A DNA stretch of 64,000 bases, from assembly GCA_023384675.1 (NCBI GenBank), contig JAHDVK010000005.1, positions 62,001 to 126,000 on the forward strand, read 5' to 3'. Below the pieces are notes generated by a model. It was not told the origin of the DNA and searched no databases. It worked only from the letters and a program-made list of their open reading frames with translations. Shown here piece after piece: positions 40,545 through 42,746 of the stretch; positions within the stretch are counted from its first letter, which is position 1, and each line of letters begins with the position of its first letter. The position numbers were made by a program, and so were the translations under genes. This stretch comes from Bryobacteraceae bacterium. GTDB lineage: Bacteria; Acidobacteriota; Terriglobia; Bryobacterales; Bryobacteraceae.

Positions 40545-41678
40545 GTGCCGCCCTTACCACAACCCCTGCCCTCCGACCGGCTGTCGCGAAAGGAGGTTCT
40601 CGAGCAGGTTGAAAAGCTCCCCGATCACGAATTGATCTTTGCGCTGCTGCACGCGACGCAGTCGCGGACCGTAGTGGTCAATGCCGAGCGGCAGATCCTG
40701 CTGGCGAACGAGGCGTTCGGCTGGGCGGCACGGGCGGCTGGCAACCCGCACTATGAAGGGATGCGCGTGGGCGAAGCGCTGGGGTGCGTCCACCGGGAGG
40801 CGGCGCGGGGCGGCTGCGGGACCAGTCCGCACTGTCTGGACTGCGGTTTGGCGCAGGCGACGGCGGCGGGGCTGGCCGGACAAGTCACCAAGAAGCTCTG
40901 TTTGATGGAACGCGACATTGATTCGCGGGTAGAGTGCGAAGAGTCGATGGTTTCGGTGCGTCCCCTGGAGGAATCGGGTCCGGGCAAACTGGTTTGCAGC
41001 CTGGCTGACATCAGCGACGCTCAACGGCGCAAGGTGATCGAGACTGCCCTGGCACAGGAGATGCGGGAGTCTGCGGAGAACCTTCGGAAACTGGCGGAGG
41101 CGGCAGTGGCGGTGCATACCGAGGAAGGTGACAGCTGGCGGAGCGCGCGCGCGGTGGCCGATGCGGCGATCCTGCTGAGCCGGCGGCTGGAAGCACAAAA
41201 CGTGCTGCTGGCAGCCGAAAAGGGCGAATTGGGGGTCCAGTTCCGCGAGGTGGATTCCGCCGGATTGGTTCGGGCGACTGCACGCAAGCTGGAGTCCGAA
41301 CCGGTGGCGTCGCGGCGCCGGATTCTGTGCGCGGGCGAACCGGGCATGAAGCTCAGCACCGACCCTGCGCTGCTGCGGCGGGCCCTCGAACCCCTGCTGA
41401 CCAACGCGCTCGAAGCCACGCCCGATGGCGGCACGGTGAAGGTGTCGGTCCAGCCGCTCACCAAGGGCGTGCGTATCGAAATCTGGAACGAGGGCGTGAT
41501 GCCCGATAGCGTCCAGCGACAGGTCTTCAAGCGCTCCTTCACCACGAAGCAGAAAGGCACGGGGCTGGGCGCCTACTCGGCGAAGCTGTATGTGGAGCGC
41601 TATCTCAGCGGGCGCGTGGGATTCCGTTCGTCGAACGGCGAGGGCACCACGTTCTGGGTTGATCTGACGGGCGAATAA
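40545..41678 (+). CDS. Sensor-kinase-like protein with Cys-rich PAS region and no phospho-acceptor His
   Basis: A 377-residue cytosolic protein. Residues 25-155 form a PAS-like domain with cysteines 81, 91, 97 and 100 (CVHREAARGGCGTSPHCLDC), a spacing seen in redox or metal-binding PAS domains. Residues 158-220 replace the dimerisation/His domain, but the position where an H-box His is expected reads ALAQEMRESAENLRKLAE, without His. The ATPase domain is present (LLTNALEATPDGG N-box; KGTGLGAYSAKL G2), though the G1 box is reduced to WNEGVM. GTG start at 40545. It ends directly against the convergent selenoprotein gene. Probably a degenerate or allosteric kinase. Confidence 0.8.
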   Translation: MPPLPQPLPSDRLSRKEVLEQVEKLPDHELIFALLHATQSRTVVVNAERQILLANEAFGWAARAAGNPHYEGMRVGEALGCVHREAARGGCGTSPHCLDCGLAQATAAGLAGQVTKKLCLMERDIDSRVECEESMVSVRPLEESGPGKLVCSLADISDAQRRKVIETALAQEMRESAENLRKLAEAAVAVHTEEGDSWRSARAVADAAILLSRRLEAQNVLLAAEKGELGVQFREVDSAGLVRATARKLESEPVASRRRILCAGEPGMKLSTDPALLRRALEPLLTNALEATPDGGTVKVSVQPLTKGVRIEIWNEGVMPDSVQRQVFKRSFTTKQKGTGLGAYSAKLYVERYLSGRVGFRSSNGEGTTFWVDLTGE

Positions 41679-42746
41679 CTACTTGCGCCGCAGGGTCTCG
41701 GGCACGCGCACGCCGTCGTGTTCTTCCAGGCGGAAGCGCCACTCGACGGGCAGCGATACCGGTGTGTAACAGACCTTGTCGTCGCAAGCCTGATAGCGGA
41801 ACTCGCCGCGCAGCCGGACGGCGCCGTCCGTTCCGGCCAGTGACTGCAAAGCCTTCTGCTGGGGAAACGTCACATCGCGATAAACGCGGAACCTGCCTTC
41901 GAAGACCGGCACGGTCTCCTGAATCGCGGGCAGGTGCAGGGTCTTTGAGGCCGGGTACGCGGCCTCGGTGGACTTCGCGCCATCGGGCAATTGCATGGTC
42001 CACGAGACCGGAATGTAGCCCGCCACGCCGGGTGCGTACACGTGCATTTTTGCTGGTAGGTCCACTTCGAGGACAAGCCGGACGCGGAAGCCGCCCCGCG
42101 CCGCTGTGTCGCTGGCCCCGTGGCGCAGCCTCAGATGCCTGGTCCGGGTGTCGGCCCAACCCGAGGAGTCCGGCGGCGAGGTCTCGATCAGGATCGTGCC
42201 GGCGGAGTAGCGCTCGCGGTAGTTCTCCTCCAGGTACTTCCGCTGAACCTTGGCATCGGCCCCGATGACGAACGTGCCGGGCCAGGGAACGCCATGGAAC
42301 GGGGTGCCGGCAGGCACGGTTTCATTCAGCAGGCCGAACTCCCGGATCACGCGGGACTCGGGGTCGCTCAGCAGCGGGACGGTGACGCCGCGGCGCCGCG
42401 CGAAAGCGCTCAGAACCTCGACGCTGTCGTAGCTGAGGGCCGCGACGTTCAATCCCTGCTTTGCAAAGGCCGCTTTTTGCTCTTCCAACTCGACCAGTTG
42501 GGTTTTGCACCACGGTCACCAATCGGCGGAACGGTAGATGACAATCACCAGACCGTTCGGGCCCTTGAGCGAGTCGAAGGTTTGCGCGCGGCCGTGCTGG
42601 TCGCGCGCGGTGAAAGCGGGAATGGGCTGGCCAACGGCCGGACCGGGGTCCCGGGGCATCTGCGCGGAGAGCATGGCCGGGACCAGAGAAACCCAAAAGG
42701 CGGCACGGGGAAATATCATCCCCCAAGGATTCGTTCGCAGCCCCAT
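41679..42746 (-). CDS. Selenoprotein: exported Sec-containing redoxin fused to a DsbD N-terminal-like domain
   Basis: Reading through one in-frame TGA (42518-42516) gives a 355-residue protein. Signal peptide (about 1-28), AhpC/TSA-type redoxin domain (about 35-180) in which the TGA is residue 77 in IYRSADW-U-PWCKTQLVELEEQ, exactly where the redox Cys of such redoxins sits, with Cys80 completing UxxC. The rest of the fold continues in frame (LSDPESRVIREFGLL, GTFVIGADAKVQRKYLEE). Residues ~195-345 resemble the DsbD alpha domain, with Cys321/Cys326 in YQACDDKVCYTPVSLPVEW. A hairpin follows the TGA by 14 nt. ATG 42746 chosen; 42719 possible. Likely an envelope peroxidase/thiol reductase. If TGA were a stop, the catalytic site would be lost. 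Confidence 0.85.
42485..42518 (-). promoter_or_regulatory. Sec UGA codon and candidate bacterial SECIS hairpin (redoxin gene)
   Basis: Minus strand: TGA (42518-42516), 14 nt, then CCAACT-GGTCG-AGTTGG (42501-42485), a perfect 6 bp stem with a 5 nt loop starting GGUC. E. coli fdhF SECIS has the loop GGUCU at a comparable distance from its UGA, and the loop guanines are what SelB contacts. Confidence 0.8.

Follow-up and report, generated by a model that had tools for sequence, protein, structure and literature searches.

Selenoproteins of the peroxiredoxin (Prx)-like type with a UxxC site are well known (PMC13188914, PMC1794560). They include thiol:disulfide oxidoreductases of the AhpC-TSA fold (PF00578, UxxC/UxxU; SelL-related, NF040769), whose entries in PMC13188914 show no DsbD domain. 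In the GOS survey, UxxC redoxins were described in fusion with Cys-bearing domains of unknown identity, and one of these domains had a CxxC motif (PMC2398784). Its Unknown_3 group likewise joins a UxxC redoxin to another domain with conserved Cys, but the description given there is of three conserved Cys including a CxxC and reports no DsbD identity, and the group is probably distinct. TsoB (NF045694, rhodanese/DsbD fusion-like, PMC13188914) is a selenoprotein with a DsbD-like part; it differs in being rhodanese-like with a UxxxxU motif. In the Neisseria PilB/MsrAB system (PMC6210582) a periplasmic thioredoxin-fold module is fed by an alpha domain, yet that alpha domain sits on DsbD and not on the acceptor chain, and the thioredoxin-fold site of the acceptor is not Sec. 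Here we describe a Sec redoxin of the AhpC-TSA fold with a UxxC site, fused on one chain to a predicted DsbD alpha domain. No published account of such a fusion was found in the open-licence literature searched, and an earlier, sequence-only reading of the DNA had named no described system of this exact layout; the fusion is apparently undescribed so far.

The gene was found in a Bryobacteraceae bacterium (GCA_023384675.1, contig JAHDVK010000005.1), in a window of 64,000 nt that comprises the whole stretch of DNA analysed (contig positions 62,001-126,000). It occupies window positions 41679-42746 on the minus strand, from a start at 42746 to a stop codon ending at 41679, and encodes 355 aa with one TGA read as Sec (stop codon included in the coordinates). 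The extent given by the sequence-only reading was correct, and the strand, unstated there, is added here; homologues match over the entire length. Translation with TGA as Sec gives a single U at residue 77, in SADWUPWCKTQLV. All features of this gene given below lie on the same minus strand. Residues 1-29 (MGLRTNPWGMIFPRAAFWVSLVPAMLSAQ; 42660-42746) were read by eye as a probable signal peptide with a basic start, a hydrophobic core and small residues at the end, in a region of low model confidence, and the exact start codon of the gene is uncertain. The chain is probably exported to the periplasm. An AhpC-TSA/redoxin domain follows at residues 38-169 (42240-42635; PF00578, E 7e-29, with PDB profile and fold matches), and a DsbD alpha (nDsbD) domain at residues 196-340 (41727-42161; PF11412, fold comparison and HHalign). 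The AlphaFold model of the full-length protein had a mean pLDDT of 92.8 and a pTM of 0.85. Pfam gave no DsbD_TM match in the 355-aa protein, which, unlike full DsbD, does not combine its alpha domain with a transmembrane beta domain and a gamma Trx domain. A convergent histidine-kinase-like gene (40545-41678) ends at the base that adjoins the stop codon of the selenoprotein gene; it encodes a Cys-rich stretch, GCGTSPHCLDCG, and has no known relation to the selenoprotein.

Reading of the TGA codon (42516-42518) as Sec77, the first residue of UxxC, is well supported by comparative sequence data. The in-frame TGA is kept at about 70 homologous loci, at the identical codon wherever Sec is encoded; a few homologues have Cys in that column. 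Directly 3′ of the TGA lies a bacterial SECIS apical stem-loop (CCAACU-GGUCG-AGUUGG, 42485-42501, 17-33 nt past the U of UGA) with six pairs and a five-base loop. Among 54 distinct Sec sequences, 98% of the pair cells were paired, with A-U to G-C covariation, a level reached by none of 2000 shuffles, and positions 2-3 of the loop were GU in every one of them. GC-rich codons by themselves already favour such a hairpin, so that a control with uniform codons overstated the significance; with a control based on the codon usage of the individual genes, all six pairs were expected in 18% of the sequences and observed in 91%. Cys homologues with a nearly identical peptide usually had a broken hairpin with 2-5 of the six pairs left, and one retained all six. 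No SECIS family of Rfam matched the window at the gathering threshold. The fold of the SECIS region, computed from one sequence only, had a z of -0.6, and it was the comparison across sequences that decided. The genome itself encodes SelB (358 bits) and tRNA-Sec (74.7 bits). Among genomes carrying the TGA fusion SelB was present in 58 of 59 (32/32 in the close set and 26/27 in the wider phylum sample), the lone exception being a 2.5-Mb assembly estimated to be 97% complete (G336), while it was absent from all six genomes that carry the Cys version only. An open reading frame does begin past the TGA, so the codon could in principle be a true stop, with the gene broken or the downstream part (269 aa) made alone. 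We give this reading next to no credence in view of the same-codon TGA at some 70 loci, the covarying hairpin and the SelB correlation; a pseudogene was rejected on the conserved TGA position and the SelB correlation.

The C-terminal domain had been proposed to resemble the alpha domain of DsbD, and Pfam, AlphaFold and Foldseek bear this out. DsbD_N (PF11412) matched residues 222-329 at E 9e-8, with 32.7 bits against a curated cut-off of 25, and both profiles suggested for a check, DsbD_N and AhpC-TSA/redoxin, matched the protein; DsbD_N was also matched at E<=0.001 by 45 of 46 homologues. Modelled alone, the domain reached a mean pLDDT of 95.8. A sequence search of it against the PDB found nothing, but fold comparison did find matches: the first seven Foldseek hits, at E values from 8.5e-6 to 3.5e-4, were all DsbD/ScsB alpha domains and unrelated proteins started at E 2.6e-3, and in VIA all 11 DsbD/ScsB alpha entries scored Z 10.3-12.4 with the next row at 8.7. 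An unrelated C-terminal fold would have spoken against the proposal; the predicted fold was that of a DsbD/ScsB alpha. HHalign of the domain with the alpha domain of the genome's own DsbD gave a probability of 95.6. The Cys pair lies in YQAC-DDKV-C, a motif of the type found at the active site of nDsbD, with Cys321 (41784-41786, motif YQAC....C) as the equivalent of nDsbD C103 and Cys326 (41769-41771) as that of C109, the residue thought to attack partners (PMC7347389). Four residues separate the two Cys here and in the DsbD of the same genome, whereas C103 and C109 of E. coli DsbD are spaced by five. Judged by sequence and predicted fold, the domain is a DsbD alpha domain: it shares with the DsbD/ScsB alphas the fold (Z 10-12 to solved structures), the YQxC...C motif and both Cys, and differs in that its chain also bears a Sec redoxin and has no DsbD membrane domain.

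A scan of GTDB contigs recovered further copies, nearly all labelled Acidobacteriota and with Bryobacterales among the closest, and about half of the 61 related genomes searched encode the full-length protein, in nearly all cases with a single in-frame TGA. By these searches the family occurs widely in Acidobacteriota and is strongly conserved there. It is easily missed: standard annotation ends or begins the gene at the TGA, and on the protein from the window every NCBIfam model stays below its cut-off; NF040769 gave 45.6 bits where its cut-off is 120, and NF045694 was not among the NCBIfam matches. U77, C80, C321 and C326 were invariant in all 46 aligned sequences (U counted as C). The protein from the window has no other Cys or Sec, the 46 sequences share no further conserved Cys column, and both redox pairs are also kept in distant members. 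A separate phylum survey found the C321/C326 pair at 29 of 30 loci, the exception (L167) being a match that stops before the region. Lack of conservation of the pair in homologues, which the sequence-only reading had named as evidence against its proposal, was thus not what we observed, and the observation as a whole is far beyond chance. Ig-like folds are common as binding modules and lone alpha proteins exist, which would fit an alpha domain that serves only for docking or substrate binding, with a structural Cys pair. Even so, the redox motif of nDsbD and the two Cys in it are invariant, distant members included, and we consider such a role very unlikely.

Several relatives show other arrangements. 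In one (L123:1701-2567) the alpha domain and its two Cys are retained but the redoxin part has lost the UxxC site, and another (L124) is a lone alpha protein; the alpha domain can thus act without this redoxin. At L130 (minus strand, reverse-complement positions 1128-2849) the Sec redoxin-alpha pair stands behind an extra N-terminal exported domain in one frame of about 574 codons in all. L125:2004-3257 encodes a possible redox sensor, a histidine kinase (HisKA, HATPase) fused to a relative of the redoxin with Cys in place of Sec (WCPFC). One clade carries ribH- and nusB-like genes, assigned by reading their sequences, beside the fusion. No neighbour of the fusion is conserved past close relatives, and genomic context therefore names no substrate.

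The redoxin domain has a Prx/TlpA-like scaffold. Its PDB profile and fold matches include both ResA/TlpA and Prx, and VIA gave Z scores of about 19 to BcpB and AhpE. Sec is generally reactive with peroxides. Together with best Pfam and fold matches to peroxiredoxins, this would suit a periplasmic Sec peroxidase in which peroxide oxidises Sec77 to the selenenic acid, Cys80 resolves it and the alpha domain regenerates the enzyme. Alignment with AhpE places the invariant Cys80 (42507-42509), the second UxxC residue, at the peroxidatic Cys, U77 at the Thr of TxxC, R72 at the Pro of PxxxTxxC and the invariant P156 (42279-42281) at the catalytic Arg. The PxxxTxxC motif is consequently absent (R72xxxxU77xxC80), Pro and Thr being replaced in 46 of 46 sequences, and so is the active-site Arg. 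According to a survey of the thioredoxin fold, the first Cys is missing from peroxiredoxins, and an Arg takes the position of the cis-Pro of thioredoxins (PMC2757866). The family shows instead the thioredoxin combination, because the first position of UxxC is kept and Pro, not Arg, stands at 156. As far as these residues tell, the redoxin active site is thioredoxin-like and not of the peroxiredoxin type. With the residues that activate peroxide replaced under the rule of that survey (Pro by R72, Thr by U77, Arg by P156), we regard a peroxidase as improbable. The selenenic-acid route of the earlier proposal is likewise unsupported, since the catalytic Pro, Thr and Arg of peroxiredoxins are absent.

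In E. coli, electrons pass from thioredoxin to the beta domain of DsbD, on to gamma, then to alpha and from there to thioredoxin-fold partners, and C109 of alpha is thought to start the transfer to these partners (PMC7347389). nDsbD also reduces the thioredoxin-fold domain of PilB (PMC6210582). A membrane DsbD was looked for elsewhere in the genome, as had been suggested, and the one DsbD_TM protein found is a full-length DsbD with its own alpha, TM and Trx domains. DsbD_TM was matched in 57 of the 61 genomes searched; three genomes of the relatives set that carry the TGA fusion or its kin (e.g. G051, G054) gave no match, possibly through incomplete assembly. The genome also encodes two lone alpha proteins. 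The gene for the first overlaps an upstream gene for an exported TlpA/ResA-like protein with a CGPC site (the pair at L003:861-1881, contig C41), and among 25 genomes examined (L168-L192) 24 had the TlpA/ResA-like gene followed closely by the lone-alpha gene. By its domain composition, an AhpC-TSA-type redoxin plus a DsbD alpha, we take this gene pair to be the split Cys counterpart of the fusion. At L001:50-1896 the second lone alpha has as its neighbour a protein of 453 aa that contains a GCPPC motif and matches Omp28/DUF1223 weakly.

Comparison of sequences and genomes, together with the predicted fold, shows both domains, the Sec coding, the invariant pairs, the departure of the redoxin site from peroxiredoxins and the presence of DsbD. 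From these we infer export, the direction of electron flow, a gamma donor, contact of alpha with Sec and the kind of substrate. We propose that the protein is probably a periplasmic Sec thiol-disulfide reductase whose own alpha domain passes on electrons derived from DsbD. The redoxin would offer a thioredoxin-type UxxC site in which Sec77 attacks an oxidised substrate, which may be a sulfenylated thiol or a disulfide, in a protein or in a small molecule; Cys80 would then close a Se-S bond with Sec77. Cys326 of the alpha domain would attack Sec77 to form a mixed Se-S bond, which Cys321 would resolve with release. The oxidised alpha would be recharged by a thioredoxin-fold donor, for which the gamma domain of the one full-length DsbD in the genome is the simplest candidate, and DsbD would in turn draw on cytoplasmic thioredoxin. 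Against this proposal count the relatives in which alpha occurs without this redoxin site, the lack of a conserved neighbour that names a substrate, and the three genomes with no DsbD_TM match.

The sequence-only reading had suggested a self-contained relay on one exported chain, in which a DsbD-type dithiol reduces the selenenic acid or the selenenylsulfide. The fusion stands, with its two sole conserved redox pairs, and export is probable. Of the chemistry, the half that holds is reduction of a selenenylsulfide by the dithiol, by analogy with nDsbD the most likely reaction of the fusion. "Self-contained" was an overstatement, because the alpha domain must be recharged by an outside donor, and a full DsbD is present in the genome. 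Flow in the opposite direction would have the redoxin act as the gamma domain of DsbD and reduce the fused alpha, which would then serve other periplasmic thioredoxin-fold proteins. The domain pair is of the same kind as in DsbD, where the thioredoxin-fold gamma reduces alpha (PMC7347389); but there is no obvious donor for the redoxin besides DsbD itself, and in fold and site the redoxin is nearer to alpha acceptors (ResA/TlpA and Prx matches) than to gamma (Thioredoxin_7). We think this direction unlikely and favour delivery of electrons from alpha to Sec77.

To our knowledge, how exported bacterial selenoproteins stay reduced is poorly understood. Fusion with a DsbD alpha domain names a probable donor pathway for one such protein and makes the question testable. 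To the fuller picture, a periplasmic intramolecular Se-S relay between a DsbD alpha and a thioredoxin-type Sec redoxin, through which the DsbD pathway feeds extracytoplasmic selenium chemistry, we give about an even chance. The conserved TlpA and lone-alpha pair suggests a wider principle, in which a soluble alpha is an adaptor between DsbD and redoxins. If true, the Se-S relay would represent, in fused form and with Sec, a pairing of redoxin and soluble alpha that is general in Acidobacteriota, and the fusion suggests that bacteria link a selenium redox centre to a reducing pathway beyond the inner membrane.
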